This document shows, piece by piece, positions 15,575 through 48,635 of a stretch of DNA of 64,000 bases (the stretch's first letter is position 1; the number at the start of each line of letters is the position of its first letter). The position numbers and the translations under genes were made by a program. Under the pieces are notes generated by a model. The model had not been told where the DNA came from. It did not search any database and worked only from the letters and a program-made list of their open reading frames with translations. Source of the stretch: Pseudomonas sp. p1(2021b) (GTDB taxonomy: Bacteria; Pseudomonadota; Gammaproteobacteria; Pseudomonadales; Pseudomonadaceae). The stretch lies in contig NZ_CP083746.1 of the NCBI RefSeq assembly GCF_020151015.1, forward strand, positions 3,811,001 through 3,875,000. Reading direction: 5' to 3'.

Positions 15575-15652
15575 ATGTCCACCACTCCCGCCACGCCGAA
15601 GGTCGGCTTTGTTTCCCTGGGCTGCCCCTGTGATACTCAAGCTAAACCCTGA
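15575..15652 (+). pseudogene. rimO: 5' fragment of host rimO, cut by the prophage
   Basis: The host start codon and first 18 codons (MSTTPATPKVGFVSLGCP) of rimO are intact and keep the native upstream region. After that the frame runs into phage DNA and stops 7 codons later. The rest of rimO is at 47,3xx-48,635, where it continues after the same Gly-Cys-Pro. The fragment would give only a 25-residue peptide. Confidence 0.93.
15618..15632 (+). other. attL (left host-prophage junction)
   Basis: The core TGCCC (15,623-15,627) follows host TGGGC and is followed by phage CTGTG. The matching right core is at 47,352-47,356. The short core is normal for a large serine recombinase. Confidence 0.8.
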
Positions 15653-15802
15653 TTTCAACCCCTCCCCTCGCTGTGCCTCAACCGTTAAACTCCTGTCCTA
15701 TGTCACAGTGCCACTGTGTTGAGGTGCCTCATTTTTGAGGAATGCACCGGTTCTGATAAAAATATACAATCACCCATCTGTCTCTTTTAAGGTACATTTT
15801 GT

Positions 15803-16120
15803 ATGTACGAAGTGGAACACGTACTGTCTTCCAATGGGGTGGACATCTACCAAGCTTGGCTCGATACCGTGCGAGACAAGCGCTCAAAAGCCAAGATCAC
15901 CACCCGGGTGGACCGTGCCTCACTAGGCCACTTTGGGGACGTAGAACCGGTGGGTGATGGCGTCTTCGAAATGAAGATCAATTTTGGGCCTGGCTTCCGC
16001 GTCTACTACGCGATCCAGGATCGTAAGATCATTTTCCTGCTGGGCGGCGGCTCGAAAGACAAGCAGCAAAAGGATATCGATCAGGCCAAGGCCCTCTGGA
16101 AATCTCACAAGGTGAACTGA
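15803..16120 (+). CDS. RelE/ParE-family toxin (HI1419/Gp49 type)
   Basis: The 105-residue product matches the phage-derived Gp49-like/HI1419 killer family (PF05973-related). It shows the pattern ITTRVDRASLGHFGDVEPVGDGVFEMKINFGPGFRVYYAIQDRKIIFLLGGGSKDKQQKDIDQAKALW, with the conserved FRVYY and LLGGG.KDKQ..DI..A. Members cleave mRNA at the ribosome. The antitoxin gene starts one base after its stop, in the toxin-first order of this class. The pair is the first gene set inside attL and may stabilise the prophage; that role is inference. Confidence 0.88.
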   Translation: MYEVEHVLSSNGVDIYQAWLDTVRDKRSKAKITTRVDRASLGHFGDVEPVGDGVFEMKINFGPGFRVYYAIQDRKIIFLLGGGSKDKQQKDIDQAKALWKSHKVN

Positions 16121-16121
16121 A

Positions 16122-16454
16122 ATGACAGCTCGTACTCGTTCTCATGAAGACAGCGTGCTCGGTATGCTGCGGGATGACGAGGACTTTGCCATCGAGTATC
16201 TCGCTACCGCGCTTGAGGAAATTGATGAGCCTGGTGGAGAAGATACCTTCCTCCTCGCAATTCGCCGCATCGCTGAGGCAAGAGGTGGAATGAGTAACCT
16301 CTCACAGAGCACAGGCCTAGCACGCCCCAGCCTGTACCGCTCGATCGCGGCAGGAGGTGACCCGAAACTCTCCACCGTTCTGAAGGTGCTTCAAGCTCTG
16401 GGCATCGGTATGTCGAAGGTCGTATCACACAGAGCAGAAGAAGCTTGCGACTGA
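16122..16454 (+). CDS. Antitoxin of the HI1420/HigA type
   Basis: The 110-residue product is an addiction-module antidote with a C-terminal helix-turn-helix (GGMSNLSQSTGLARPSLYRSIAAGGDPKLSTVLKVLQALGI, residues about 62-100) and an N-terminal toxin-binding part (DDEDFAIEYLATALEE). It should neutralise the toxin encoded just upstream and bind the operon promoter. One base separates the two genes and a terminator follows, so they form a closed two-gene operon. Confidence 0.88.
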   Translation: MTARTRSHEDSVLGMLRDDEDFAIEYLATALEEIDEPGGEDTFLLAIRRIAEARGGMSNLSQSTGLARPSLYRSIAAGGDPKLSTVLKVLQALGIGMSKVVSHRAEEACD

Positions 16455-17053
16455 CCCTTTCAGCCGACGATGACATGCCCCAGCCTATCCGGGGCATTTC
16501 TTTTTGCACTCCTCCTCCACACGTGCTGGCTGACGCCTGCAATGCTGTGCAAAGCGCGATCCTCAATGAAAAAGCGAAAAGCCGCGTGATTCCTGGCCTC
16601 CAGCGCTAGACCCAGATCTGGGCTATGACGACCTGGTGCGCATCACCAGGAGTGGTGCGGATTTTGAAAATCGCCCCTTTCGCCGGTTTTCCACTTTTTC
16701 ACCCAGGCGGGCCGGGGGGTTGCGGAAATCCCCCGCTACCCTGCCCTCTGTCATGCCGTGCAAGCACATGACACTTCTTTGCAAATCCTTGCACATCGTG
16801 CAATGCCCTCACAGCTGCTAGGACCCGCAGCGGGCCTGGGCTGGGGGCCCAATTGCACCACACCAGGCGTTTGCACTTTTTTGCGACGAAAAGCCCGTCG
16901 GCGGGAGGGGGATAAGTGATTTTGGTCCACGGATTTTTTTCCAACCCGAGATTTTCATAGATTTGACGAGCGGTGGTTGGGAAAGCCTCCGGCCGCCCTC
17001 ATGTCCCCCTTCCAAGTCATTGGCTTGGTTGGGTATTTCCACTGGGGGCAGGT
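16455..17053. other. 599-bp phage region without a recognised gene
   Basis: The first 50 bases hold the antitoxin terminator. From about 16,740 to 16,880 several TTGCA/TGCAA words are clustered (for example GTGCAAGCACATG, TTTGCAAATCCTTGCAC and TTTGCACTTTTTTGCG). A GC-rich block (GCAGCGGGCCTGGGCTGGGG) lies in the middle. Open frames here have no family-like sequence. A packaging or regulatory site is possible but not shown. Confidence 0.45.
16475..16505 (+). terminator. Terminator of the toxin/antitoxin operon
   Basis: ATGCCCC and GGGGCAT form a stem with a nine-base loop, followed by TTCTTTTT. It begins 20 bases past the antitoxin stop. Confidence 0.8.
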
Positions 17054-17314
17054 ATGGATCAAGACGAGATTTACAAGGCAACACGGGAGCGGGCCACTAT
17101 CGAGCTGAAGGAGTGGGCCGAGCAGAGGTTTCAACGGATGGCAGAAGCGCCAGGCTCAGGCTGGGATCCCGAGGAACAGGAATGGTTGGGGGATCATGAA
17201 GAGATCGACATGGAGAAGAAACTCCTGGCGAAATTCCGCGGCAAGTACCCCAAGGACATTATCGTAGCGATTGCTGGCGAGTTGAACTTTGACGGTGATT
17301 GGACCCGTAGGTAG
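17054..17314 (+). CDS. Small hypothetical phage protein
   Basis: The 86-residue product is charged and helical (EIYKATRERATIELKEWAEQRFQRMAEA) with an acidic middle and the ending ELNFDGDWTRR. I do not recognise a family. The ATG at 17,054 has GGGGGCAGG just upstream. It is on the opposite strand to the late operon and converges on it across a bidirectional terminator. The position, between the antitoxin operon and the tail spike gene, suggests an accessory gene. Confidence 0.6.
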   Translation: MDQDEIYKATRERATIELKEWAEQRFQRMAEAPGSGWDPEEQEWLGDHEEIDMEKKLLAKFRGKYPKDIIVAIAGELNFDGDWTRR

Positions 17315-17316
17315 TT

Positions 17317-17366
17317 CCTAGGGCAAAGAAAAACCGCCGGATTCGGCGGTTTTTCTTTGCCCTAGG
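17317..17366. terminator. Bidirectional terminator with a perfect 23-bp stem
   Basis: CCTAGGGCAAAGAAAAACCG... (17,317-17,339) is an exact inverted copy of 17,344-17,366, with the four-base loop GATT. GC-rich CCGCCG/CGGCGG pairs at the tip and A/T tracts on both sides let it stop transcription from either direction. It separates the rightward small gene from the end of the leftward late operon, and begins 2 bases after one stop and ends 1 base before the other. Confidence 0.92.
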
Positions 17367-17367
17367 G

Positions 17368-18339
17368 CTACATCGTAATGGGCTTGAGTTGCACGCCCAA
17401 GGCCTTGGTGGTTGTGCCGGCGGCGGTGAATGCCCCAGCGTTGTTGGGTGCCGGGCTGGGCCCATGGACGTGCACGGCCAACTGGGTGTTCATCTGTTCC
17501 ACCACGTCCAGCAGATCACACAGCACTTGCAGCACATTGACCCCTTCCGACCCCAACCAGGTCTTGGGCGCCTGCAGGCGCTGACTGACTTTGGCCACGC
17601 TCCGGCGTAAGCCTTGGACCTGCTCCTGCATGTCACCGCCTACCGTGGCGTTGTGCTTCTGCCCCACCACCAGGTTCAGGTCGCGACCAGTGGCCTGGTG
17701 CAGGTCATCGACCGAGGCCAGGCTGGCAGAGCCGCCTGACAGCAGCTTGAGTGCCCCCAGGGCCTCGATCTTCTTGACCCCGCCCACCGACTCGGTGGAA
17801 TGGTCATCTACCTCCCTGGTATGGCTCTGGTACCGCTCGGTGTTGGTCATCGACTCCACTTCCCGCTCGATCGCCTTGTCCAGGATCTTGCCATCCGTCT
17901 GGCGCAGCCAGTTGCCGTCCGCGTCGACGCGCTGCTGGCAGGCCTCGCTGTGCTGCCAGACCTGGTCGCCTTTCGGTACCCGGGGCAGGCTCAGGCCATG
18001 CGGCAGGATCTGCGTGATGAAGGGCTTGTGCGGCAGGCCATAGGCGAACGAAACCACCACAGTGGTGCCCTCCTCGGGGAAGCCGAACATACCGGCCTCC
18101 TGACCGCCCATAGGGGCTGGCAAAGGCAGGCTGTTGAGGATCGGGAGGGCGGGGTCGGGTTCACCGTCAGGCAGCAGGATCTGCACGTCCACGCCGAAGC
18201 GTGGGCGGAAGTCATCGCACAGGCCTTGCGCCTGGGGCGCGTCCGGTACCGCGACGACACGCCCAAAGCGCGGCAAGTGGTAGCCGCCGGTGATTTCAGG
18301 GAATTGGCGCTCTACTGCGCGGCGGATTGCGTCTTCCAT
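17368..18339 (-). CDS. Baseplate spike protein (gpV-like)
   Basis: The 323-residue product has an N-terminal OB-fold-like part (HLPRFGRVVAVPDAPQ ... PALPILNSLPLP ... EEGTTVVVSFAYGLPHKPFITQIL), typical of gpV/Mu gp45 spikes. A repetitive, beta-helix-like middle follows (about residues 125-250, GSASLASVDDLHQATGRDLNLVVGQKHNATVGG). Near the C-terminus is a His-x-His motif (HVHG) like those that bind iron at spike tips. It should pierce the outer membrane when the sheath contracts. It is the last gene of the late operon and starts inside the end of the hub gene. Confidence 0.75.
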   Translation of the reverse strand: MEDAIRRAVERQFPEITGGYHLPRFGRVVAVPDAPQAQGLCDDFRPRFGVDVQILLPDGEPDPALPILNSLPLPAPMGGQEAGMFGFPEEGTTVVVSFAYGLPHKPFITQILPHGLSLPRVPKGDQVWQHSEACQQRVDADGNWLRQTDGKILDKAIEREVESMTNTERYQSHTREVDDHSTESVGGVKKIEALGALKLLSGGSASLASVDDLHQATGRDLNLVVGQKHNATVGGDMQEQVQGLRRSVAKVSQRLQAPKTWLGSEGVNVLQVLCDLLDVVEQMNTQLAVHVHGPSPAPNNAGAFTAAGTTTKALGVQLKPITM

Positions 18340-19016
18340 CGGATGGCCATCTGGTTATCGGCGAGCGCGACGTGGGTCACCCGCTCGCCCTGGTTGATCG
18401 ATGCACCTGGTCGTAGCCCGGGCAGGGCCGCGATCATGGCGCTCTGGTTGCCCTGGTAGCCATCGAACAGCTCGATCGGCAACTGCAGGGCCGGGCGCAC
18501 GCCGAAATAGCTGTCGGCCCAGCTGCCCACGAACACCTCGCCATCGCCCTGTTGTTGCCAGATGAAGTCTGGGATGGTGAACACCTGGGCCAGGCTTTCC
18601 ATGGCCTGGTAACCGGTGGCCAGGCTGTAGAAGTACGGCGCCCGGGTTGTGGCGTAGGTCCGGTCGGGCACGCGGAAGCGCAGGCCTGTCTGACGGCTCA
18701 CCTCCTCGAGCACAGCGCGCAGATCCACATGGCGCAGATTCATTGGCAGCGGCTTGGCTAGGATCGCGGCGAGCTCGCGGCAGAACAGCACCTGGTGCTT
18801 CGTGTTTGCGGCGGTGCTGCGCTCCACGTAGCCGATGAAATGGCGCTGCAGCGGCTTGTCGTTGTAGCCGATGTCGAATGTCACCAGCCCCTTGAGCGGC
18901 GCGCTGGCCTGCACGGTGAATGTAGCCCGCCCCGGGTTGCGCAGCTCAAGGCGCACGTCGGCCTTCACCAGGTCCAGGACCTGGCCACCGACGGAAATCA
19001 CCTGGTGCAGCTTCAC
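18312..19016 (-). CDS. Baseplate hub protein (gpD-like)
   Basis: The 234-residue product resembles the first domain of tail hub proteins (gpD/gp27 type): NPGRATFTVQASAPLKGLVTFDIGYNDKPLQRHFIGYVERSTAA and LREVLEEVSRQTGLRF-like sequence (DLRAVLEEVSRQTGLRFRVPDR). It is shorter than P2 gpD (about 390 residues). It should sit between the tube and the spike encoded downstream, which overlaps it by 28 bases; it overlaps the upstream gene by 4. Function is inferred from position and fold-like pattern. Confidence 0.65.
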   Translation of the reverse strand: MKLHQVISVGGQVLDLVKADVRLELRNPGRATFTVQASAPLKGLVTFDIGYNDKPLQRHFIGYVERSTAANTKHQVLFCRELAAILAKPLPMNLRHVDLRAVLEEVSRQTGLRFRVPDRTYATTRAPYFYSLATGYQAMESLAQVFTIPDFIWQQQGDGEVFVGSWADSYFGVRPALQLPIELFDGYQGNQSAMIAALPGLRPGASINQGERVTHVALADNQMAIRWKTQSAAQ

Positions 19017-19561
19017 GACGCGCTCCCCAGCCAGTCATCCACTTTCTTCAAGGTGGCTTCGAAGCCTGTCAGCTCCTGACCCTTGCCCGCTTCACCGCCG
19101 GTACCGGCGGTACCGCCCACGCCCGAGCCGGTCCCGGACTGGGACTGGACCGCGTTCGGGGCTCGGCGCTTCTCGACCTTCTCGGGGTTCGACTTCTTCT
19201 CGGCCAGGCTGAACTGCACCCGCCAGCAGTTGAGGATGTCGTCTTCCCGGGCGCTAACACCGTCCGAAAACTGCACTTGGCGCATGCCGAAGGCGGCAGC
19301 CGTGTCGTTCACGATGCGGTACATCTTGAGCTGGCCACCGCCCTCGGTGGCCTCGGCCAGGCGCATCAGATTGCGTAGCCATTGGTGGTCGACGTAAGGG
19401 ATGGTCAGCGTCACGGTGAGGGTCTTGGGCTTAAAGCCCTTGTGCGCTGTCTCGGTGTTGCTGGTCTGCCCTGAAAGGTCGTCGGCCTCGATGCGCAGGT
19501 TCGCGGTGATCTTGAGCGTCTTGCCCCGGACTTGCTCGCCGTCTAGGAGTAACTGAGTCAT
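19013..19561 (-). CDS. Baseplate complex protein
   Basis: The 182-residue product starts MTQLLLDGEQVRGKTLKITA and has a soluble, beta-rich first half (KTLTVTLTIPYVDHQWLRNLMRLAEA) and a Gly/Thr/Ser-rich linker near residues 140-160. Its place, directly before the hub and spike and translationally coupled to both neighbours, points to a baseplate component. I chose the ATG at 19,561, which overlaps the preceding stop, rather than the frame to 19,636. Specific function is not known to me. Confidence 0.6.
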   Translation of the reverse strand: MTQLLLDGEQVRGKTLKITANLRIEADDLSGQTSNTETAHKGFKPKTLTVTLTIPYVDHQWLRNLMRLAEATEGGGQLKMYRIVNDTAAAFGMRQVQFSDGVSAREDDILNCWRVQFSLAEKKSNPEKVEKRRAPNAVQSQSGTGSGVGGTAGTGGEAGKGQELTGFEATLKKVDDWLGSAS

Positions 19562-20481
19562 AGGCCTACCAACTCCTGTACGAAGCTCAGGCCTTTCTGG
19601 GAGCCGACCAGGAGCACGCCGGCACAGATCACCCATTCATGCCCTGGGTTATCCCCTTCCAGCAGAGCCCGGCGCAGGTCGCTCACGGTGCCTGGGCCGA
19701 CCAGACGTGCGCGAATGCTGGTGTCCTCGGCACTGTCCTCGAGGAGCTTGCGCAGGTCGGCCAGCATCTGGTCACGGTCGCGCTGCTGGGTAGCTTTGCG
19801 TGTGGCCAATGCGGCCAGGTCTGCCATGGGCGAGCTGTCAGCGGCATAGCCCTCCAGGACGGCCACCTGGCCGGCCATGGATTGCTGGGAGGCTTTGACG
19901 ACCGTGCAGCGCTCCAAGGGCAGCGGCTGCCACCGTGGCAGCGGTCCAGCTTGGGGTATGTCCCACTTTTCGGTTTCCAGCTTCGCTAGGTGGCCTGCTC
20001 GACGCTCAGTACGGACCAACTCAGGCACCGGCATCAGCCCATTGAAGCGGGCCAGGCTCGCCGCGAGGCGGTCATAGCGAGTGGCCAGGAACAGTACACA
20101 GAGCGCGTAACGCTCGCCCTGGGGGCGCCCGGCGTCGGTGGCATCGGTCAATTTGCGGGCTAGCTCCTGGAGCAGGTTCGGCGCTGACAGGAAACGCTGG
20201 TACCCGCGCCCCTGACCAATCCCGCTCTGGAACGGTGTCACCACCAGGCACGCCGGCGGATCGTTCAATTGCTCGGCCAGGGCTTTCCGTCCAGCCTCGA
20301 TCGCGCCTTGGGCAGCGGCGCCGACAGGTCCAGGGCTCGTGCTCGCGATGCCCTGCAGGCCAGCTACCCGTGCGCCGGTGCTGATCAACTCGCTGCCCGC
20401 CAGTTGCTTGGCCGAATCGAGCTGGCCCATCCATTGCGTGGCCTGTGATGGCCAACGCATTTTCACGTTCGACCAGGTCAT
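19558..20481 (-). CDS. Phage tail-region protein of unknown function
   Basis: The 307-residue product begins with an Ala/Gly-rich helical part and has a region resembling a globular tail component (YALCVLFLATRYDRLAASLARFNGLMPVPELVRTERRAGHLAKLETEKWDIPQ). It then has charged helices (ALATRKATQQRDRDQMLADLRKLL). I do not recognise a named family. It overlaps both neighbours by 4 bases in the baseplate part of the late operon, so a structural or assembly role in the baseplate is likely. Confidence 0.55.
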   Translation of the reverse strand: MTWSNVKMRWPSQATQWMGQLDSAKQLAGSELISTGARVAGLQGIASTSPGPVGAAAQGAIEAGRKALAEQLNDPPACLVVTPFQSGIGQGRGYQRFLSAPNLLQELARKLTDATDAGRPQGERYALCVLFLATRYDRLAASLARFNGLMPVPELVRTERRAGHLAKLETEKWDIPQAGPLPRWQPLPLERCTVVKASQQSMAGQVAVLEGYAADSSPMADLAALATRKATQQRDRDQMLADLRKLLEDSAEDTSIRARLVGPGTVSDLRRALLEGDNPGHEWVICAGVLLVGSQKGLSFVQELVGL

Positions 20482-20960
20482 ACTCGCATGCCCTGATCAA
20501 TGTTCCACTTCAGGGATTCGGCCTGCAGCCACTCCGGCATCACCGGCCGCCCGGCGGCAGTAGGGAACTGGGCAAGTTCTGGCCAGTCACGGAGTGCACG
20601 GCGATAAAACTGCAGTTCCTGGTACTGCTCTTCTGTCAGCGTGGTAGCACCTTGTTCAATCTCGTCACGATGTCGAGAAACGAGCGCGTCAGTTGCTGTA
20701 AGTTGAGCATCACGCCAAGCACGCTCAATGATGATGATGACTTCAGGAGCAAGCGGTGGCGCATCTTTGGTAATAGGCTTACCATCGTAGTCAGCACTAA
20801 GTACACGCCCCAGCTCTTGCTCAGCCAGTAACTTGATATGTTGTTCAGCTGAAATATAGACGCCATCCTCCGGCCATCCCTCGGCGCTCTGTGCGTAGAC
20901 GCTCCGTAACACTACGGGATAAAAAGACAAGCGGCTTGGAGAAAATACATAAGCACTCAT
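20478..20960 (-). CDS. Tail fibre assembly protein
   Basis: The 160-residue product follows the fibre gene and ends with the pattern of Tfa/gpG-type chaperones: LTEEQYQELQFYRRALRDWPELAQFPTAAGRPVMPEWL. These chaperones help trimerise the tail fibre encoded upstream. The N-terminal half (GVYISAEQHIKLLAEQELGRVLSADYDGKPI) is also typical. The codon use and base composition of this gene and the fibre tip are a little more AT-rich than the rest of the operon, as is common for exchangeable host-range modules. Confidence 0.82.
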   Translation of the reverse strand: MSAYVFSPSRLSFYPVVLRSVYAQSAEGWPEDGVYISAEQHIKLLAEQELGRVLSADYDGKPITKDAPPLAPEVIIIIERAWRDAQLTATDALVSRHRDEIEQGATTLTEEQYQELQFYRRALRDWPELAQFPTAAGRPVMPEWLQAESLKWNIDQGMRV

Positions 20961-20969
20961 AAATGTCTC

Positions 20970-23339
20970 CTATCGACCAATGGCTCTGATAAAAACTAGA
21001 GACGAAGGGCTGCCGCCACTCCAGTTCAAGCCGAGACGAACCTGTGAGTTGTTGATGAAACTTGCCGAAACGCTTAAAGAACCAGTTGTTCCCGGAGCAG
21101 AACTTGGTCCGACCGGTGTGGCCTGGACGTTAAGTGCTTGATTGGGGAACGCAATGGGCAGGTTGACCACGACTTCGGTATTGTCAGCGCCAGATGCCTG
21201 AATCCACTGTTCGATAAAGCCGGTGTCCTCATCCCGCCACCAACCCGACGTGCTGAGAGAGGCGGTCGCAGGTACACCCGCGCCGATGGTCGATCGAGCT
21301 CCTGCAGGCGTATTCGCTCCAAGCCCGCCGCGAGAAAGTGGCAGGATGCCCGCTTGGACCTTTGAAGCATCCACCGTCAACGGGATAGTGATGTTTGCGC
21401 TGCCGTCGAAATTCGCAGCTCCTGAGCCCGCTCCTGAAATTGAGATGGTGCGAGGTGTGGCGAGCTTCAGTGCCGTCGGGGCCTGGCCGGCCCCGTTGCC
21501 CGTGCCTCCTCGTGCAATGGGTAGAATGCCGGTTGTCAGCTTGGATGTATCCAAAGCGGGAATATCTGCTGCAACTAGCGCAGCCCCGCCAGTGACTAGG
21601 CCCTTAGCATTGACGGTAACTTTAGGGTAACTACCTGCAGCAACACCGCTATTGGCAAGAGTGATAGTCGCAGAGACATTGCTAGTACCATCGAACGCAA
21701 CGGCCCAGCTAGCATCACCAGAAGCGCTCAAGGTGCGCTGTGCGGCAAGCTTGGTTGCTGCGGCTGCCGTGCCATTGACGTTGATGTTGTAGGTTCCAAC
21801 AAGACGTGCAATAGGAACGGTACCCTCGCCCAGATAGTTGGCGTTGAGCTCTACCAAACCGGAACCGTTACCAATGAGCCGGGTGGCGTACAGTTCTCCC
21901 GTTTCCATCTTGAAAACGAACGGGTTGGAAATCCAAGAGCCGTCTAGCCGACTGTAGCGACCAATACGTAGCTCGTTGCCACCCTCTAGACCGCCCGCAT
22001 GGAGCATCACTCGATCGCCATAGCCACCTTGCAATGCGATTGAGGACCACCAATCAGTAGAAATAACGACGTTGCCAGTAAGCGTCCCGCCTGCAGTTGA
22101 AAACTTGCCATCTAGCGCCGCCTGCAACCCAGCAGTTTGCGCAATAGTATGGCCATGCTTGGTAGGGTCCACTACAACCGGAATAGCCAGATCTGCGGCC
22201 CCATCGAAGACGCCGCTACCGGTCGCACCACCGGTCAAGCTGATGGTCCGGGCCGTGGCTAGCCTGGCCGCCTTGCCGACGATCGACACACCCGAAATGA
22301 TGTTGTTGATGGCGGCCTGCAGAAGGTTGCGCACGGCCTGGACCATGTTGGTGGTGGCCAGGACGGCGGTGCTGTTGTTGGCAGGGTCGTTGCTGATGGC
22401 GTTCGGGATCTGGTCCAGCCCCACGTCGCCCTTGGTCGTTGCCTGGGCGCGCAATTGCGGGTAGGTGCCGATCTTGGCCGCGAAGTGCTTCACCACCGGC
22501 CCGGTGATCGCTTCGACCGGGCGTCGATCGCTGATTACCGCGGCTGTCAGATCGGCTAGGGGGATGCAGTAGTGCTGCACGCCCAGGGCGTCTTTGTAGT
22601 CGGGTTTCGCGGCGGCACAGACCAGGCTCCAGCGGGCCACCACGTCATTCAACTGCCGCTCCAGGACAACATCGAGCCAGACTGTTGTCGGCAGGGCCGC
22701 AGCGGGTACGGCCAGCCCGGCAGGGACATTCACCCGAACGCCTTCGACGTAGGCCAGGCCGGGCTTGATCTGGTACGCGGTACCGACCTTTTCCACCTGC
22801 AGGCCGGTGTCGAAGAAACAGGCGCGCCCGAACATGTCGCGGTTGCTCAGACGCTCGCGCTCATCGATGCCGGCCAGGCGCACGGTGAAATCGTGCTGCC
22901 AAGTCTTGGCATCGATGCTGATACCGGTGGTTTCCTGGGCACCGTCGTATTCGACCAGGACGTTTCGTGTGACGTTGTTGCCGAGCTGCAGCGGCGGGAT
23001 GTTCTTGCGCTTCTGCTGCAGCGGCATGTAAGCCACGGCGAACAGCACGCCTTCGGCGGTTTCCAGGCCCATCCAGTTCCAGTCGAAGTCCCCGATGTCG
23101 CTGCCCAGCTGGGCGCTATACACGACCTGGTTGGGGTTCACATAACCGCTGTTTTCCGCCGGAATCACGTAGGTGTAGACGATCTGGTTGGCTGGCGGCT
23201 TGCCTGCAGCCCGGTCGATCGGCGTGTTGGGGTCCAACCCGGGCACGTTCGCGAAGATGAACTTCGACACCACCAGGGCTTGCTTGGCGCCCTGTTTCTG
23301 GGCAATGAGGCTTTCGCCGGCGAGGGTAATTCTTGCCAC
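20970..23339 (-). CDS. Tail fibre protein
   Basis: The 789-residue product starts with a phage tail-collar/DUF3751-type baseplate-attachment domain (about residues 1-170: ARITLAGESLIAQKQGAKQALVVSKFIFANVPGLD, GFDWNW-like DFDWNWMGLE). The shaft carries repeated segments of the type ATARTISLTGGATGSGVFDGAADLAIPV, found at about residues 365, 550 and 660, with the spaced ILPxARGGTG motif between them. The tip (about 700-789) should bind the cell surface. Upstream is gpI, downstream the fibre chaperone. The shaft repeats suggest past duplication. Confidence 0.88.
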   Translation of the reverse strand: MARITLAGESLIAQKQGAKQALVVSKFIFANVPGLDPNTPIDRAAGKPPANQIVYTYVIPAENSGYVNPNQVVYSAQLGSDIGDFDWNWMGLETAEGVLFAVAYMPLQQKRKNIPPLQLGNNVTRNVLVEYDGAQETTGISIDAKTWQHDFTVRLAGIDERERLSNRDMFGRACFFDTGLQVEKVGTAYQIKPGLAYVEGVRVNVPAGLAVPAAALPTTVWLDVVLERQLNDVVARWSLVCAAAKPDYKDALGVQHYCIPLADLTAAVISDRRPVEAITGPVVKHFAAKIGTYPQLRAQATTKGDVGLDQIPNAISNDPANNSTAVLATTNMVQAVRNLLQAAINNIISGVSIVGKAARLATARTISLTGGATGSGVFDGAADLAIPVVVDPTKHGHTIAQTAGLQAALDGKFSTAGGTLTGNVVISTDWWSSIALQGGYGDRVMLHAGGLEGGNELRIGRYSRLDGSWISNPFVFKMETGELYATRLIGNGSGLVELNANYLGEGTVPIARLVGTYNINVNGTAAAATKLAAQRTLSASGDASWAVAFDGTSNVSATITLANSGVAAGSYPKVTVNAKGLVTGGAALVAADIPALDTSKLTTGILPIARGGTGNGAGQAPTALKLATPRTISISGAGSGAANFDGSANITIPLTVDASKVQAGILPLSRGGLGANTPAGARSTIGAGVPATASLSTSGWWRDEDTGFIEQWIQASGADNTEVVVNLPIAFPNQALNVQATPVGPSSAPGTTGSLSVSASFINNSQVRLGLNWSGGSPSSLVFIRAIGR

Positions 23340-23348
23340 AGATGGCTC

Positions 23349-25039: not shown

Positions 25040-25353
25040 AGGTGTACCTCGATATCACCGAATTTCAGGGTTTTCGCAGTGACCAGGTACACGCCTGGCC
25101 TGTCCTCGAGGATCCGCGCAGTGCCCGGCACCAAGCGTTCGTCGTCCTCCACCAGCAGCTCCAGTTGCAGAATGCAGTCGGCCTGGCGCTGCCGGCTGCG
25201 CTCGCCCATGAGGGTCACCAGCAGACCACTCTCGCGGATCATGTGAGCGATGTCCTGGGCGATGCTCGCCCGATCCTCGATCAGCAGCGGCTGACGGGAC
25301 GGGTCAAGCACCAGGTCATTGCCTTGGATGAGCAGGTCGATGTATTCGCCCAT
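25036..25353 (-). CDS. DUF2590 baseplate protein (gpW/gp25-like position)
   Basis: The 105-residue product has the DUF2590 pattern: IDLLIQGNDLVLDPSRQPLLIEDRASIAQDIAHMIRESGLL, then QLELLVEDDERLVPGTARI. The family occurs in HP1/K139-like tails, in the place of P2 gpW, a lysozyme-like baseplate wedge piece. The ATG at 25,353 overlaps the tape-measure stop (TGATG); an in-frame TTG lies one codon earlier. Confidence 0.85.
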   Translation of the reverse strand: MGEYIDLLIQGNDLVLDPSRQPLLIEDRASIAQDIAHMIRESGLLVTLMGERSRQRQADCILQLELLVEDDERLVPGTARILEDRPGVYLVTAKTLKFGDIEVHL

Positions 25354-27713: not shown

Positions 27714-27720
27714 GGGGTGG

Positions 27721-30063: not shown

Positions 30064-30069
30064 AGACGG

Positions 30070-34830: not shown

Positions 34831-34831
34831 A

Positions 34832-38770: not shown

Positions 38771-38845
38771 AAACACAGTAATTTGATGATCGTCGCCTAA
38801 ATTGACGGCATAATGATGGCCATGGAAATCCCTGGGGAGGGACAT

Positions 38846-41329: not shown

Positions 41330-41565
41330 GTAGGACTCAGCGTCTTAGCCTGCCCTTCAATGTCCTGGATTGGTCGGGAGCTTTCTTGACAGGGGAACGG
41401 CCGGGTTTCCTGAGCAGTGCAAGAACCGTCGTCAGCGATTGAGACTGTGATGTTCCGACGGGTTTTGAGAGCCTTTGCAATGGATGCTGGCTTTACATGG
41501 AGAGCCCGCGCAACGCGAGCCTGCCCAATTTTCTGGACAAATTCACCAAGGGGAATCGTTTCCAT
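41326..41565 (-). CDS. cro: Cro-like repressor
   Basis: The 79-residue product lines up well with lambda Cro: PLGEFVQKIGQARVARALHVKPASIAKALKTRRNITVSIADDGSCTAQETRPFPC against lambda's [46 protein letters not shown]. It is longer at the C-terminus. It should bind the operator at 41,631 to commit to lytic growth. The ATG at 41,565 (AGAGGTG upstream) was chosen over the frame to 41,595. It leads the leftward operon cro-X-rep. Confidence 0.88.
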   Translation of the reverse strand: METIPLGEFVQKIGQARVARALHVKPASIAKALKTRRNITVSIADDGSCTAQETRPFPCQESSRPIQDIEGQAKTLSPT

Positions 41566-41630
41566 ATCCGCACACCTCTGACTGATGAGTTGCACGAAAT
41601 GTTACCCGGCGGCATATTTTTTATCAATGT

Positions 41631-41659
41631 CGCTAGCTAACCAAAACTGTTAGCTAGCG
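41631..41659. promoter_or_regulatory. CI/Cro operator
   Basis: CGCTAGCTAAC and GTTAGCTAGCG form a perfect 11-bp inverted repeat with a 7-base spacer, in the gap between cro and cI. Each arm contains the palindrome GCTAGC. Confidence 0.88.
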
Positions 41660-41662
41660 GCT

Positions 41663-41668
41663 TATGAT
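41663..41668 (+). promoter_or_regulatory. -10 box of cI (pRM-like), leaderless start
   Basis: TATGAT ends 6 bases before the cI ATG at 41,675, so transcription should begin at or next to the A of ATG. No ribosome site precedes the ATG. The matching -35 position falls inside the operator and is poor, as in lambda pRM. Confidence 0.6.
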
Positions 41669-41674
41669 TTCCGA

Positions 41675-42391
41675 ATGACCAAGAAGAAACCTATTGCCCC
41701 CCATCTGCTTGCCGAGTGCAAAGCAGCCCATGATCTTTTCCTTTCGAAAAAGAATGGACTCAAACTCACACAACGAAAAATCGCAGACGCAGCAGGGATC
41801 ACCCCAGTATCTGTGAACCATTACCTAAAGGGCATCAACCCACTGAATGCCAAGTTTGCGGCTGTGTTGGCCAAAATGCTTGGGGAGCCCATAGAAAGTT
41901 TCAGCCCGCGCCTTGCAGCTGAAATCGCTGATATGGCCGCTGCCAGCCATGGCAACGTTTCTCCAATGCTGCAGCCACATCGCGAAGCTAGGGAGTACCC
42001 TTTACTCACTTGGGTGGTCGCAGGTGAGGCGATCGAGTCCTCGGTTTCCCACCCCACCGGAGTCGCCGAAGAATGGCTGTCGTCGACTGAGAATGCCGGC
42101 CCCAACGGCTATTGGCTGGAAGTGAAGGGGAAATCGATGACCTCCGACACCCCACCCAGCTTTCCGCCTGGCACTCCCATACTAATCCGTCCCGAAGGTT
42201 TCGATCTGGTCAGCGGAAAGTTCTATGTCGCGCTGCACATACCCACTGGCGAACACACCTTCAAGCAGTACGTCCTGGACGCCGGCGTTGCCTATCTGGT
42301 CCCCCTCAATCCCGAGTACCAGACGGTTGTTTTGGACGAGAACTGGCAGATCGTAGGCCGGGCGATTGATGCCAAGATCACCGGCATGTAA
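41675..42391 (+). CDS. cI: CI-type repressor with S24 autocleavage domain
   Basis: The 238-residue product is a lambda CI-type repressor. An N-terminal HTH (QRKIADAAGITPVSVNHYLKGINPLNAKFAAVLAKML, about residues 28-68) is followed by an S24 peptidase domain with cleavage site Ala-Gly in TWVVAGEAIES (about 112-113), catalytic Ser in VKGKSM (about 151) and Lys in TFKQYV (about 193). RecA* would trigger self-cleavage and prophage induction. It is divergent from cro across the shared operator, and its mRNA is probably leaderless. Confidence 0.93.
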   Translation: MTKKKPIAPHLLAECKAAHDLFLSKKNGLKLTQRKIADAAGITPVSVNHYLKGINPLNAKFAAVLAKMLGEPIESFSPRLAAEIADMAAASHGNVSPMLQPHREAREYPLLTWVVAGEAIESSVSHPTGVAEEWLSSTENAGPNGYWLEVKGKSMTSDTPPSFPPGTPILIRPEGFDLVSGKFYVALHIPTGEHTFKQYVLDAGVAYLVPLNPEYQTVVLDENWQIVGRAIDAKITGM

Positions 42392-42402
42392 CTAATGGAC
42401 TT

Positions 42403-42957
42403 ATGATGCTACTTCCAAGACCAAGCAACCCAGATTCAACTCACGTTATCGACTTCTGCAGAAGTGTGGCCCAGGACCAAACACCCCTTATCGTTCCGTA
42501 CAAACCGCTGCATGGAAAGCCAATGGGAGAATGCTTCAGTATTGTTCCAGAGCAGGTCATCGCGCACGGTGGAGAACAGCTGGTAGGCTGGGCCATCTGG
42601 GAGACTCCTGGCATGCTCATTGAGGCCGAGTTTCACGCTATCTGGCAAGACCCACACGGAAACTTGGTCGATCTTTCCCCCCGCCCCGTTCACTACCAGA
42701 GCACCCTCTTCCTCCCGGATCCGAGCAGAGAATATCGCGGACGACAGGTCGATAACATCCGACGCGCACTGGTGGACGACACTGACGTAATCCGCTTTAT
42801 CCACCTCGCAAGCAAACGATTCGCGATACTCAACAAGGGCGACTTGGCCGACCAACATGGTGCCATTAACCTGCCTCCCCGAGCCGAGCGGGAGTATCGG
42901 AATGTTGAAAAGGAGATGATGCAACTTCAACATCGACTCACTCGACGCTATGAGTAG
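42403..42957 (+). CDS. Unknown protein expressed with the repressor (moron candidate)
   Basis: The 184-residue product follows cI by 11 bases on the same strand and so is probably made in the lysogen. It has a conserved-looking core: CFSIVPEQVIAHGGEQLVGWAIWETPGMLIEAEFHAIWQDPHGNLVDLSPRP. I recall similar GW-IWE ... EAEFHA-W cores in bacterial proteins that sometimes carry SEC-C motifs, but their function is not established. Lysogenic conversion or defence against other phages are open possibilities, not shown. Confidence 0.6.
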   Translation: MMLLPRPSNPDSTHVIDFCRSVAQDQTPLIVPYKPLHGKPMGECFSIVPEQVIAHGGEQLVGWAIWETPGMLIEAEFHAIWQDPHGNLVDLSPRPVHYQSTLFLPDPSREYRGRQVDNIRRALVDDTDVIRFIHLASKRFAILNKGDLADQHGAINLPPRAEREYRNVEKEMMQLQHRLTRRYE

Positions 42958-43016
42958 GGACGGACCTATGCTTCTGGATTTGCATATGACTGTTTTCATG
43001 ATTCCCCGCTAACTAC

Positions 43017-43439
43017 TTACTCGTGAAAATTTAAACTTGCTAGTGCAGCAGGATGCGCGAAATGGTCTATTTCGCCGGGGCCAGCGACCCGCCAGTGGGT
43101 CACCCCGCTGATGTTCACGGCCATGCCCTCATGCCACCACCCCAGGTCGGTGAATTGACAGCGCAGCAAATCACCACCAAAGCTCGGGCTGTAGACCATG
43201 TAGCGTAACTGCCCATAGCGATCATCATGGGGTAACCAATCGCAGCACTCCACCCAGGACTGGGCAGCTTTGACGATTGACTGCAGATGGGGCAACTGCG
43301 ACGGCGGTACCGTCAAATACTCTTTGCCCTGCATCCAATGGCGCAACTGCTCTTGCGGGGCCATTTGCTGGAAGGCCACGACCGCTTGCCATTCCTCATC
43401 CGCGTCGACCAGCACCGACTTCGAAGAACAAGCGGTCAT
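43017..43439 (-). CDS. Unknown early phage protein
   Basis: The 140-residue product (MTACSSKSVLVDADEEWQAV ... GEIDHFAHPAALASLNFHE) contains many Trp and His residues (LGWWHEGMAVNISGVTHWRVAGPGEIDHF). I do not recognise a family. The chosen ATG overlaps the stop of a 51-codon frame upstream. It is the last gene of the leftward early set. Confidence 0.55.
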   Translation of the reverse strand: MTACSSKSVLVDADEEWQAVVAFQQMAPQEQLRHWMQGKEYLTVPPSQLPHLQSIVKAAQSWVECCDWLPHDDRYGQLRYMVYSPSFGGDLLRCQFTDLGWWHEGMAVNISGVTHWRVAGPGEIDHFAHPAALASLNFHE

Positions 43440-43591
43440 CGTGCAGTCTCTCCGATCGAGCGCAAGAAGCCATGCCAAGCAACCAGACAACACTCTTGCT
43501 TGAAGTAGGCCTTCACTTTCTCTCGGTTCACTGGATCTACCGCCTCGCGCAGGCTCATCCTACGAACTGTGGTATAGTCACGTTCGGACAT
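43436..43591 (-). CDS. Small 51-residue phage protein
   Basis: A short frame starts at an ATG (43,591) with AGGGA 8 bases upstream and ends at a TGA overlapping the next ATG (ATGA), showing translational coupling. The product begins MSERDYTTVRRMSLREAVDP and ends FLRSIGETAR. It is charged, with one Cys-Cys pair. No family is recognised. Confidence 0.6.
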   Translation of the reverse strand: MSERDYTTVRRMSLREAVDPVNREKVKAYFKQECCLVAWHGFLRSIGETAR

Positions 43592-43657
43592 GATTGATTC
43601 CCTAAAAGTTGGTCAGTCCTGCCAGGACATCGGTGGCCGCCGCTGTCCTGGCGCCTC

Positions 43658-43870
43658 TCAATCAGGTTGATGCCTGAGCAACAGCATCCCACCTTCTTGT
43701 ATGGGTTTGGCCTGGTCGGCCATTCGGTCGCGCCCTACATCAACGCGGATATCTAACGCCATCCCGGCGTACCACAATTGGCTGCCCTGAATCCGCACCG
43801 CATGCTTCCGCAACCAGCGATAGCGATCGGCGTCACGACGTAGTGCCTCCAGCTCATCCGCATTGATCAT
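43658..43870 (-). CDS. Small phage protein (RYRWLR type)
   Basis: The 70-residue product contains EALRRDADRYRWLRKHAV, a pattern often seen in small phage hypothetical proteins, and then a strand-rich C-terminus. Its start overlaps the end of the upstream zinc-ribbon gene by 17 bases. Function is unknown. Confidence 0.6.
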   Translation of the reverse strand: MINADELEALRRDADRYRWLRKHAVRIQGSQLWYAGMALDIRVDVGRDRMADQAKPIQEGGMLLLRHQPD

Positions 43871-44120
43871 TCGTCCGCCCTGATCCAACCTCGCTGGAAA
43901 TGAGGGCATAGACCTTGGTGCCCACGGTGATTTTCATGAACAAGACATTGCAATAGGGGCACTGCGACAGGGTGTCCCACTGCTCGCCTCGGGGGGCTGG
44001 ACGCGTCTCTAAGGTCTGGCGACAGCCAGGGCATGCAAACTCAATGAATGTGATGCCCTGGGACTTGAGTCGGTTGTTGTACTCGGTATACCGCTCCAAT
44101 AAGGTCGGCGTAGCGCTCAT
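43854..44120 (-). CDS. Zinc-ribbon phage protein
   Basis: The 88-residue product has two Cys pairs, C-x2-C (ACPGCRQ) and C-x2-C (QCPYCNV), about 20 residues apart, which form a zinc ribbon. The flanks are helical at the N-terminus (LLERYTEYNNRLKSQG). It overlaps the upstream gene by 4 bases. A DNA- or protein-binding role is likely; the target is unknown. Confidence 0.62.
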   Translation of the reverse strand: MSATPTLLERYTEYNNRLKSQGITFIEFACPGCRQTLETRPAPRGEQWDTLSQCPYCNVLFMKITVGTKVYALISSEVGSGRTNDQCG

Positions 44121-44404
44121 TGGGCAGCTCTCCCCTTACGCGGTATTTCCTGCGCCGCAGCTCCTGGCGGTGCGCTGTGCACCACGATATGGCCCTGCCC
44201 GATCATGAACTTCTTGATGACCGTGACGCAGACGTTCCAGGTTTCCTGGGCGACGGTTTCGCCCGCCTCCACCACGTTGCCCTGGTCGTCGATGATCGCC
44301 AGGCGCGCCGGGCGACCATCTGCGGTGGTGAAGCGATAGCCCGTGGTCACGTTGGCACTGATGCAGCTGTGCTCGAGGGCGCCGGTCTTGGGAATCCCGA
44401 TCAT
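44117..44404 (-). CDS. Unknown early phage protein
   Basis: The 95-residue product (IPKTGALEHSCISANVTTGYRFTTADGRPARLAIIDDQGNVVEAGETVAQETW) is beta-rich. No family is recognised. It overlaps both neighbours by 4 bases, so it belongs to the coupled early operon. Confidence 0.6.
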   Translation of the reverse strand: MIGIPKTGALEHSCISANVTTGYRFTTADGRPARLAIIDDQGNVVEAGETVAQETWNVCVTVIKKFMIGQGHIVVHSAPPGAAAQEIPRKGRAAQ

Positions 44405-44622
44405 GCTGGCACCCCTTCCCCAATGAAGATGGGAGTGCAGTTGTTGATGATTGCTGCGATGGTGTGAGCCTGCAGGTCACGACTACCTTGCAACGTGTGG
44501 ATGGTCCCCCAGGCTTCGGACTGGATAGCGAACTCTAGGTCATCGATCGCTTTCCGGTAGAGGGCAAGGGCGGTTTCGAGCTGCGCCTGGGCTTTGCTGG
44601 GCAGGGCGATTTGGATAGTCAT
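44401..44622 (-). CDS. Unknown early phage protein
   Basis: The 73-residue product is mainly helical (KAQAQLETALALYRKAIDDLEFAIQSEAW). No family is recognised. It follows its upstream gene by 9 bases and overlaps the downstream one by 4. Confidence 0.6.
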   Translation of the reverse strand: MTIQIALPSKAQAQLETALALYRKAIDDLEFAIQSEAWGTIHTLQGSRDLQAHTIAAIINNCTPIFIGEGVPA

Positions 44623-44631
44623 ATCGCCCCC

Positions 44632-45201
44632 TCAAGCCGCAATGCGGTAATTGGCCACGAACTCTTGGACGCAGCCGCTAAGCAACGCGTAAGCCAGTTC
44701 GCGATCGTTCGGCAGCAGCACCGGCAAAGTGAGGCACACCCCGTCTAACTCGAAGCGGAACGCTACACGCTTCGGATCAAACGCACTCTGACGGAGCAAC
44801 AACGCCAGGCTTTCGACACCTTCAACCGGCAGGTAGTAAGAGCCTCGACGTTCCCGCACAGCATCGCGCAGCATCGCCTCCAGATCGCTGGCAAGCTGGG
44901 TCTCGCCCTCTTCCAGAGTACCGATCGGCACCGCGACATCGTTCGCCAACGATTCGATGAAAACGGCCAGCCGTGTGCCGTTGTCCTCGCGTTGGGCCAG
45001 GGTGATGGTATTGACGGATTCACCCAGCTCAACCCGAGCAGTTACGCCATCGCAGCACTGCTCAATTACAACGCGAGCAGTAGCCCGGATCTCGGTCGTA
45101 ACGGCGTCGTGCAGATCATGGTGGTAGGTGCCATTCACGCCGACTTGGCGGGCCAGCGCATGACGGCTGGCCAAGGAAAGGCGAAGCGGAAGGTTTTGCA
45201 T
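44632..45201 (-). CDS. Unknown early phage protein
   Basis: The 189-residue product starts MQNLPLRLSLASRHALARQVG and has a mixed alpha/beta pattern, with no motif I recognise. The ATG at 45,201 is preferred to the one at 45,225 because it follows a purine-rich stretch. It is the first gene of the five-gene coupled early operon that runs to about 43,658, downstream of a small inverted repeat at 45,261. Confidence 0.6.
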   Translation of the reverse strand: MQNLPLRLSLASRHALARQVGVNGTYHHDLHDAVTTEIRATARVVIEQCCDGVTARVELGESVNTITLAQREDNGTRLAVFIESLANDVAVPIGTLEEGETQLASDLEAMLRDAVRERRGSYYLPVEGVESLALLLRQSAFDPKRVAFRFELDGVCLTLPVLLPNDRELAYALLSGCVQEFVANYRIAA

Positions 45202-45260
45202 GCGACTCATCTCCAAAGCGATCACAGCAGGGTGGCCTGCTGTGAACCGATGGCAATAAG

Positions 45261-45275
45261 TTAGCCCCAGGCTAA
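45261..45275. promoter_or_regulatory. Possible second repressor operator
   Basis: TTAGCC and GGCTAA form an inverted repeat with spacer CCA, upstream of the early gene at 45,201. With its flanking G it shares the half-site GTTAGC with the CI/Cro operator. Confidence 0.45.
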
Positions 45276-45333
45276 TTGCAAGTCAAACACCAGCGACATA
45301 TTTTCCTCGGATAAATTAACCGCAGACACTCTT

Positions 45334-45597
45334 TCATCGATGCTGGTTTGTCCAGGACAATTGGATTGCCCCGCCATCCAAACGTGTCAACCGCACGCTT
45401 TCCTCGACCTCCAGTTGGTCGAGCAGCTTATCCCAATCATCCACTCGCTCCCCCGGTAAGCGTCTGATTACCGTTCGTCGCCTATCTTGAGCTGCTGAGC
45501 TATTCACCTGCCGGTGGATTCGTCGCGTGAGTTGTTCGAAACGAGTCGCGGAAGGAGGAGGGAAGATGGTTGGGACGGTAAACATAAGCTGATCCAT
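45334..45597 (-). CDS. DUF1654-like protein under LexA control
   Basis: The 87-residue product resembles the DUF1654 family of Pseudomonas: FEQLTRRIHRQVNSSAAQDRRRTVIRRLPGERVDDWDKLLDQLEVEESVRLTRLDGGAIQLSW. The function of the family is unknown, but members are frequent in or near prophages. The start MDQLMF lies 5 bases downstream of a LexA box; the longer frame to 45,672 would run across that box and the integrase end. It is thus predicted to be switched on by DNA damage. Confidence 0.72.
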   Translation of the reverse strand: MDQLMFTVPTIFPPPSATRFEQLTRRIHRQVNSSAAQDRRRTVIRRLPGERVDDWDKLLDQLEVEESVRLTRLDGGAIQLSWTNQHR

Positions 45598-45602
45598 AAG
45601 CA

Positions 45603-45618
45603 CTGTACACACATACAG
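45603..45618. promoter_or_regulatory. LexA box in the prophage
   Basis: CTGTACACACATACAG fits CTGT-N8-ACAG exactly, with an alternating core like CTGTATATATATACAG. It is 5 bases from the start of the DUF1654-like gene. Confidence 0.85.
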
Positions 45619-45655
45619 TATAAATTCTCTCCAATCGAAGGCAATACGCCACCAG

Positions 45656-47275
45656 CTATGTCCAGTCCTCACTCGCCAGCCAAGCTCCCGTCCTCCGGTT
45701 GATCTGAATCAGACGGTGCTGCCCAGTGCGGGAGAACAGCTGCACATCGATGGTGCGGCTGGTTCGATCCGTTGCACCTATCCCCCGCATGTAGATGACG
45801 ATCCGTTCGAAGGTATCCATAACCAACTGCCGAACCTGCTCGCGGGCGCTGTAGTCACCTGCCTCGACCTGGCTCGCCAACTCCCTCCAACGTCCAGCAT
45901 GTACGGGTCGCTCTACGCTGGAGAATGCCGATACCTGGTGCTCCAGATCCTTCACCTTTCGCTCTGCAGCCTCTTGCAGCTGCTCGAGCTCACGGGCCTT
46001 ACGGACAAACGCCAACGGCGCCGCACCACTGTCATCGGCAAGCAAGGCATCGGTCACCTTCGCAAGCTGACTCGAAAATTTGTCGACCTCTGCGCGAGCA
46101 GCAGCCAGTTGATGTTGCAACCCACGTCCATCGTCTCCGTCTTGGAGCAAGCGCTGCAGGTTGAACTGATCAGAGCAGAAGTTGAGCAGCGCCCGCTCGA
46201 TCGGCACCACGCTGCAACTGCCGCCTGCTGAACAACCGCCGTTTTTGCTGTAGGAGGTACATTGCAGTCGACGATGGCCGTCCGCCAAACTGCCGTCTGC
46301 ACGTCGTCGATTCATGATGTTCTGAGCCACCAAAGCTGTACCGCAGTAACCACAGTACGCCAGGCCCACTCCGGTCACGATCCCCGGGATTTCTCCATGA
46401 CCTCGGCGACGAAGACGCTGGCCAGCTAGGTGCTGGAGCTCCCCCCACTCCGCCTCCGACAGTATCCGAGGGTAATAGTCCTCCAGCTCATGCTCCTCAC
46501 CATCAAGCGTCAGCCGCTTCACCCCGCGTAGGGCTGGCAACTTAATCAGCCGATAGATCTGCAGTCCAGATATACCCCAATCGGTCAGTTCGTAGCCTTC
46601 CTGGTGCATCAATTTGGCAGCCCGGCCTGCCCCCATACCTTGGCGGTAAAGGGCCAGAGCTCGCTGGACTGCCGCTACTCTTTCCGGGATCAGCTCCCAG
46701 GAATCCCCAGTCCAGCGCACCCACTGCGGATCCTTGCCATTGCGTATCAACCCGCGATAGGTACCGGCCTTCCACCCCTCGCACTGGCGCCGAATCGCCG
46801 CCTTCACACGTTTACTCTTGGTGTCCGACTCCTCATGCGCACGGATCATGACGAGTAGCGAATAGACCAAGTCCATTGGTTGAGCCTTCAGCCCGGCGCG
46901 GTTGTATTCCCTACCATCGCTGGCTGTGACCACTGTGATACCGGCGTTGATGATCTGTGCCAGCTGAGCTTGGGCCTGGATCGGCTCAGCACGACTCAGA
47001 CGGTCCAAGCCCTCCACGACAAGAACAGAACCGTGAGCGATGCGCCCGTTTTCGATCGCTTCCAAGAACACACCCAGCGCGCCCTGCTTGACGTGTCGTT
47101 CATGGTAGGCAGATAAACCCTCATCTCTCAGCGACAACGTGTCGTCCAAGATCAGGCCCTTGCCCGCAGCCCAGTTCTGGGCGTACTGCAGCTGACGGTC
47201 GGCACTGCTGCCGGTCGCTTGCCGTGGATCGGAAAACCGCAAATAGCTGTATACTCTCGCGCCGTTTTTTGCCAT
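45656..47275 (-). CDS. int: Large serine integrase
   Basis: The 539-residue product is a large serine recombinase. The resolvase domain (residues about 5-150) has the nucleophile in YLRFSDPRQ (Ser15) and the conserved [10 protein letters not shown] recombinase domain follows (about 165-290), then a zinc ribbon (YCGYCGTA ... C ... C, about 308-350) and a coiled coil (about 375-450) that controls directionality. It inserts the phage at rimO. It reads toward the prophage centre, with its start only 31 bases from the chimeric rimO start; the rimO promoter must therefore lie in its 5' end. No obvious directionality factor is found nearby. Confidence 0.94.
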
Positions 47276-47306
47276 TACGAAAATTCACCCTGATGAGGAT
47301 CATCCT

Positions 47307-48635
47307 ATGATGACAGAGAAACCCCCACGTATAGGAATGATATCGTTAGGGTGCCCGAAAGCTCTGGTCGATTCCGAGCGCATCCTGACCCAGCTGCGCA
47401 TGGAAGGCTACGAAGTCGTGCCCACCTACGAGGACGCCGACGTGGTGGTGGTCAACACTTGCGGCTTCATCGACAGCGCCAAGGCCGAGTCGCTGGAAGT
47501 GATCGGCGAGGCGATCAAGGAAAACGGCAAGGTCATCGTCACCGGTTGCATGGGCGTCGAGGAAGGCAACATCCGCGACGTGCACCCGAGCGTGCTGTCG
47601 GTCAGCGGCCCGCAGCAGTACGAGCAGGTGGTCAACGCCGTGCATGAGGTGGTGCCTCCACGCCAGGACCACAACCCACTGATCGACCTGGTACCGCCCC
47701 AGGGCGTCAAGCTGACCCCGCGCCACTACGCCTACCTGAAGATTTCCGAAGGCTGCAACCACAGCTGCAGCTTCTGCATCATCCCGTCCATGCGCGGCAA
47801 GCTGGTCAGCCGCCCGGTGGGCGAGGTACTGAGCGAGGCCGAGCGCCTGGTCAAGGCCGGGGTCAAGGAAATCCTGGTGATCTCCCAGGACACCAGCGCC
47901 TACGGCGTGGACGTCAAGTACAAGACCGACTTCTGGAACGGCCGCCCGGTCAAGACCCGCATGCTCGAGTTGTGCGAAGCCCTGAGCAGCCTGGGCGCCT
48001 GGGTGCGTCTGCACTACGTCTACCCGTACCCGAACGTCGACGACGTAATCCCGCTGATGGCTGCCGGCAAGATCCTGCCGTACCTGGACATCCCCTTCCA
48101 GCACGCCAGCCCCAAGGTCCTCAAGGCCATGAAGCGCCCGGCCTTCGAAGACCGTACCCTGGCCCGCATCAAGCGCTGGCGCGAGCAGTGCCCGGAACTG
48201 GTCATCCGCTCCACCTTCATCGTCGGCTTCCCGGGCGAGACCGAAGAAGACTTCCAGTACCTGCTCGACTGGCTGACCGAAGCCCAGCTCGACCGTGTCG
48301 GCTGCTTCCAGTATTCGCCTGTCGAAGGCGCCCCAGCCAACGACCTGGGCCTGGACGAGGTACCGGACGACGTCAAGCAGTCGCGCTGGGACCGCTTCAT
48401 GGCGCACCAGCAGGCGATCAGCGCCGCACGCCTGCAGCTACGTATCGGCAAGGAAATCGACGTGCTGATCGACGAAGTCGAGGAACAGGGCTCGGTCGGT
48501 CGCAGCTTCTTCGACGCGCCGGAAATCGACGGTAGCGTGTTCATCGACGGCGACCACGGCTTCAAACCGGGCGACAAGGTACGCTGCCGCATCGTCGATG
48601 CCGACGAGTACGACATGTGGGCCGAGCCTGTCTGA
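47307..48635 (+). CDS. rimO: Chimeric RimO: ribosomal protein S12 methylthiotransferase
   Basis: The 442-residue product is a full-length RimO, which adds a methylthio group to an Asp of S12. The MTTase domain keeps its three Cys ([20 protein letters not shown]), the radical SAM motif is C-x3-C-x2-C ([16 protein letters not shown]), and a TRAM domain ends the protein. The first 16 codons ([16 protein letters not shown]) are phage DNA and replace host MSTTPATPKVGFVSLGC; from Pro17 on the gene is host. The start has GAGGAT upstream, also from the phage. Expression must use a phage-supplied promoter, perhaps TATACT at 47,250. Confidence 0.95.
47348..47362 (+). other. attR (right host-prophage junction)
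   Basis: The core TGCCC (47,352-47,356) follows phage TTAGGG and is followed by host GAAAGCTCTGG. Joining the host sides of attL and attR restores GGGCTGCCCGAAAGC, an intact rimO reading frame. Confidence 0.8.

Follow-up and report, generated by a model that had tools for sequence, protein, structure and literature searches.

The window, by which we mean the whole 64,000-nucleotide stretch that was analysed, comes from a genome judged by its relatives to be of Pseudomonas type and holds a prophage that splits the host gene rimO near its 5' end, with the native start of the gene at the left junction and a start supplied by the phage at the right. The features concerned are as follows.

15474..15510, plus strand: native rimO promoter region left behind (TAGAAT, then TTGCGCACTTTTTGATCAG and GGCGCC)
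15575..15652, plus strand: truncated 5' end of host rimO, made up of 18 codons of the host followed by phage codons up to a stop (25-aa peptide)
15623..15627: attL core TGCCC from the junction comparison, with phage-unique sequence from 15628
15623..47353: prophage, read as P2/HP1-like, 31,729 bases (31.7 kb) from TG to TG
45656..47275, minus strand: large serine integrase, 539 aa (Pfam Resolvase, Recombinase and Zn_ribbon_recom; phrog_95 integrase)
47250..47255, plus strand: TATACT, which probably serves the new rimO promoter as its -10 box and lies antisense to integrase codons 7-9
47295..47298, plus strand: putative ribosome-binding site GAGG, 8 nt before the ATG (crude sequence match)
47307..47353, plus strand: phage-supplied rimO leader, 15 codons and the first two bases of a Cys codon, which is also the left half of attP
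47307..48635, plus strand: chimeric rimO, 442 aa, from its sequence, domains and alignment to a solved RimO
47352..47356: attR core TGCCC from the junction comparison, with host sequence from 47357

At the left junction, native rimO opens at ATG 15575 and reads MSTTPATPKVGFVSLGCP before passing into phage sequence and a stop at 15650-15652, with the crossover falling within codon 17. At the right junction, ATG 47307 opens 16 codons in frame with host rimO, and this frame runs to 48635; a second candidate start, ATG 47310, follows directly. The sequence at both junctions thus confirms an earlier sequence-only reading in which host rimO was split at its 5' end and given an in-frame start by the phage; its count of 16 new codons stands as to start, ribosome site and frame, but strictly only codons 1-15 belong to the phage, as codon 16 (Cys) holds the exchange. 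The same reading had the first iron-sulphur Cys retained, and this is what we found: the leader ends S-L-G-C, and the chimeric protein, which carries UPF0004, radical SAM and TRAM_2 domains by Pfam search, aligns with the solved RimO 4jc0 from residue 8, the first LGCPK and with it the first conserved Cys motif included. The second intact rimO elsewhere that had been named as possible counter-evidence is absent from the genome (listed as 100% complete), where the sole other match is a 33% MiaB-like paralogue. Comparison with phage-free relatives, also proposed in that reading, showed a native rimO start in all 29 empty-site loci (L061-L089, with the window's own L060 set aside), and the start left behind in the window matches theirs in kind. 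The left neighbour of rimO in the window, kup, is present in 25 of these 29 stretches. Upstream of the native start, the promoter region is conserved in relatives and a promoter scan returned TGGTCA-17-TAGAAT (9/12). The native 5' leader (window 15480-15515) shows a conserved TTGCGCACTTTTTGATCAGAGGCGCC together with a GGCGC/GCGCC inverted repeat in relatives; a conserved 19-base element of this upstream region, which occurs once in the genome, is possibly a regulatory element lost in the lysogen.

Profile matches within the prophage identified portal, terminase, scaffold, capsid, sheath, tape measure, baseplate and endolysin genes, along with a CI-like repressor, a CII-like activator and the large serine integrase. 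We interpret the P2-type capsid and scaffold, the divergent terminase and portal, the contractile tail and the baseplate genes, all of which were found, as suggesting a P2/HP1-like family. The integrase is a single long protein in which a Resolvase N-terminal domain, a Recombinase domain and a zinc ribbon each score above the Pfam cut-off. Its gene lies at the right end of the prophage and is divergent from the rimO leader, 31 nt separating its first codon from the leader ATG. At the left end (window 15803-16454) there is a toxin-antitoxin-like pair consisting of a Gp49-like gene, whose match of 23.6 bits is just under the Pfam cut-off, and an HI1420-type antidote. A search of 13000-49000 for known RNA families gave none at gathering score; outside the prophage, two tRNA-Met genes stand in tandem at 8786-9059. 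GG(C/G)TGCCC is common to both junctions (left core GGCTGCCC, right core GGGTGCCC), and because host and phage differ just before TG, the host reading GGC and the phage GGG, the exchange is placed within TGCCC. Its point is probably TG itself, which is the centre of a weak dyad in attP (13/30 positions, p 0.024; 9/30 in the empty site).

The arrangement is not peculiar to this phage. Relatives of the integrase were found on 12 genome contigs (Pseudomonas, Azotobacter and Atopomonas) and 35 viral contigs, and the phage leader is fused to rimO in 12/12 of the former and 14/35 of the latter. Among the remaining 21 viral contigs, in 18 the sequence runs out no more than 20 bases from the integrase match, L049 represents free attP, and at the leader position of L047 and L048 other sequence is found, i.e. 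another site. The integrase is present at E 1e-60 or better in 8 of 398 genomes of the genus, seven of which hold the leader block, the exception being L097. Scanning viral contigs with an attP pattern returned 31 stretches, three of them already in the integrase-relative contig set; the pattern asks for the SLGCP codons, and its matches therefore carry no information on those codons. Every one of the 31 has an integrase relative and 30 have an in-frame ATG (L109 probably uses GTG), with 20 running on into rimO and 11 representing free attP in which the frame stops within 24 codons. The fusion is more than chance because the same design recurs in so many related phages, and this recurrence, together with the frame and codon tests described below, rules out a chance in-frame fusion.

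A sister integrase branch, represented by L048 and L097, has inserted mid-gene in a LysE-type gene and left it broken. The LysE-type remnant in L048 matches profile positions 110-191, just under cut-off, and in neither locus does the element supply the first ~109 positions; L048 meets a stop at the junction, and in L097 the frame stays open and begins with a short stretch of unrelated sequence.

Codon-level selection is apparent in the leader itself. For the nine phage codons that precede the exchange, comparing in pairs the 28 distinct blocks obtained from 40 integrase-found loci gave differences of 0.31/0.06/0.41 at codon positions 1/2/3, so that second positions are nearly frozen and third positions free, whereas the 15 distinct attP right halves read in the same frame gave 0.41/0.54/0.53 and no such pattern. 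The 14 distinct free attP left halves, from 15 loci, gave 0.24/0.08/0.48, but 11 of the 15 loci were drawn from the pattern that fixes some of these positions. Of 57 distinct leaders, 56 have an in-frame ATG ahead of any stop, compared with 2/57 and 3/57 in the other frames; in these counts, as in those of frozen codons below, L100, L112 and L096 were left out by hand, L051/L094 was counted twice, and L107 entered through a partial match with no data at the frozen columns. By a crude search of the same 57 leaders, the ribosome-site match extends to at least 4 bases in 23 and to 3 bases in 19, and the 15 with a shorter match or no ATG come mostly from more distant phages. These patterns point to selection on the leader codons for a protein start, beyond integrase binding, and lend weight to the earlier proposal that the phage has evolved to keep rimO readable.

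We next consider transcription, for which the first codons of the integrase are a plausible source. Loci were divided into an adjacent layout, in which the first aligned integrase residue lies 45-92 nt from the SLGC block, and a distant layout, in which it lies 173-1,381 nt away. Adjacent-layout integrases of the Pseudomonas clade spell (R/K)VYSY as NNA GTA TAC AGC TAT, and the opposite strand of these codons reads ATAGCTGTATACT, a -10 box facing rimO. The integrase tree comprises 80 rows, 62 of which bear both traits (layout and codon motif); it omits the window's own four copies, which the window integrase represents, seven duplicates, the short rows L053 and L118, and rows whose codon motif could not be read, and it retains some redundancy (L051/L094 and L052/L096 are each the same genome, and L037-L041 and L045 are near-identical). 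In its 49-row Pseudomonas clade the TATACT codons occur in 20/20 adjacent-layout rows vs 0/12 distant-layout rows. Integrase codons 8-11 show no synonymous variation in the 21 adjacent-layout rows with data, one locus being counted twice; only 10 of 337 testable columns are equally invariant in the adjacent group, and of the 2 of 346 that are so in the distant group neither belongs to codons 8-11. Layout changed five times on the tree, and the codons followed in 4.7 of five independent pairs on average and never in reverse (p 0.0625, the lowest value reachable with five pairs). Against this, TATACT is missing from 23 of the 50 adjacent-layout tree rows, all of them among the 30 outside the Pseudomonas clade; six have TAAACT, one TATAAT (L120) and 16 neither.

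Distant-layout leaders bear a -10 of their own, TAGAAT in 10/12 and TACAAT in 1/12, and in the twelfth, L105, a fossil. In L105 the integrase lies ~800 bases away and its codons read CGC GTC TAT, and at the leader (11719 onward) the first 12 integrase codons survive as a fossil that includes TATACT. Among 10 distant-layout phages compared with the native rimO region, some resemble it: L004, L005 and L053 (0/200 shuffles as good) and L044 (1/200) share a TTGCGCANTTTTTNATCAG-like sequence with it, a pattern whose single occurrence in the host genome is at rimO. The likeness is less clear in L018 (4/200), and L093 (11/200), L091 (13/200), L030 (43/200), L105 (65/200) and L043 (157/200) show none beyond shuffles. 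Since this likeness was seen by eye before testing, we regard it as suggestive only. For the window's own phage (L001) a host-derived promoter can be rejected, as no likeness to the native region was detected (153/200 shuffles as good); in the adjacent-layout L003, L007, L009 and L037, 114-199 of 200 shuffles were as good.

Together, these observations support a model in which a temperate P2/HP1-like phage would use its large serine integrase to enter rimO at codon 17, and in which the attP half that lands upstream of the host gene would double as coding sequence, providing a start and a RimO-like N-terminus ending S-L-G-C. The new rimO promoter probably sits inside the integrase gene, although the promoter scan gave no good -35 for it, and the -10 box in the first integrase codons, on the opposite strand, would most likely drive transcription into rimO; preservation of this box in the Pseudomonas clade favours the earlier claim of phage-borne expression signals. 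With start, N-terminus and candidate promoter all supplied by the phage, the lysogen would keep full-length RimO under phage signals, an account of the locus that we hold with considerable confidence. The promoter would be expected to be active, the chimera to be translated and to retain RimO activity, including S12 modification, and the prophage to be capable of excision from the lysogen. With somewhat less assurance, we favour the further view that ~110 bases serve several uses at once, namely integrase N-terminal codons, host-gene promoter on the other strand, ribosome site, half of attP and N-terminus of a host enzyme, that synonymous integrase codons are frozen only to run the host gene, and that a move of the integrase leads to the cassette being reassembled with a different promoter.

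Other explanations can be set against this one. The leader might be conserved only through integrase binding to this attP half, with the open rimO frame as a by-product; the leader block is indeed well conserved as DNA (GTRTAGG, GGGTGCCC) and attP has its weak dyad, but variation in the leader is concentrated at third positions and in conservative first-position changes, unlike in the right half, and the start codons, although placed beyond the conserved block, keep the frame in those 56 of 57 leaders, which makes a mere by-product very improbable. Part of the leader set was found with the SLGCP pattern and the block finder asked for SLGC, biases of which the integrase-found set is free of the first only. 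It is likewise improbable, if a little less so, that the integrase gene uses the frozen GTATAC codons for its own control, as an operator or promoter element, with rimO driven from elsewhere or not at all. The element does sit in the integrase gene, and the promoter scan of the right junction found no -35 near TATACT that reaches its threshold, giving instead TTCACC-16-TATGAT at 47284-47311, which overlaps the start codon. However, distant-layout integrases also need regulation and yet none of the 12 keeps the element, in L105 it stays with the leader and is missing from the displaced integrase, and the distant-layout leaders have -10 boxes of their own.

About as doubtful is the idea that the phage alters RimO expression to its own gain, for instance through promoter strength or growth-rate control: the phage substitutes for the whole of the native promoter and 5' leader, and the new dusA promoter of the island IMEVchUSA3 gave lower expression according to the part of the report available (PMC8409611), but there is no sign of benefit in the window's phage. 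On our preferred account, in which the phage preserves RimO, a phage family repairs the front of the gene it breaks across many hosts, and this implies that RimO, although dispensable in the laboratory, matters in nature. The description of RimO as essential-like is doubtful, given the rimO knockout mutants cited in the accessible part of PMC9144972. The locus also amounts to a natural experiment: certain phage-gene codons seem to be frozen because their opposite strand serves a host gene.

Insertion within the first codons and an in-frame start supplied by the element are both found in the window's prophage, as in phage JC1, the dusA islands and SXT. The integrases of dusA islands belong to another family, the tyrosine type, as does that of SXT/R391. 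Within the open-licence literature, the JC1 paper was the sole one found on phage entry into rimO, and an integrase-embedded promoter kept by frozen codons, or a codon test on attP, was not found described; the portions available of the JC1 paper do not discuss a promoter inside the integrase gene (PMC9144972), and those of another report give one sentence to rimO of Polaromonas (PMC4482086). In B. cenocepacia Van1 the target of JC1 is the 5' end of rimO, where an ATG from the phage keeps RimO in frame, and its authors predict a functional RimO, as stated in those portions (PMC9144972). Its integrase is 59.1% identical to the window's serine integrase and uses the same 5' site in the same gene, and its attP reads MSKKYSIGIVSLGCP, the window's phage likewise supplying an in-frame ATG; JC1, however, is a podovirus of Burkholderia with TAAACT at the -10 position, whereas the window's phage is read as P2/HP1-like and has TATACT. 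The dusA islands, IMEVchUSA3 among them, are inserted in the 5' end of dusA and supply promoter and N-terminus (PMC8409611 and PMC4482086, in the parts consulted), and a lacZ fusion in IMEVchUSA3 showed dusA expression, lower than before integration (PMC8409611, same part). The likeness lies in the 5' end of an RNA-modification gene as target, and the difference in that IMEVchUSA3 is a mobilizable island in another gene. ICE SXT/R391, a conjugative element in prfC and so unlike the window's prophage, also supplies promoter and N-terminus by the available text of PMC8409611 and PMC12210918. Because JC1 in rimO, SXT in prfC and IMEVchUSA3 in dusA, as far as these partial sources go, do the same, the rarity that the sequence-only reading ascribed to 5' replacement was overstated: replacement of a 5' end by an integrating element is already known, and the window's prophage adds another case.
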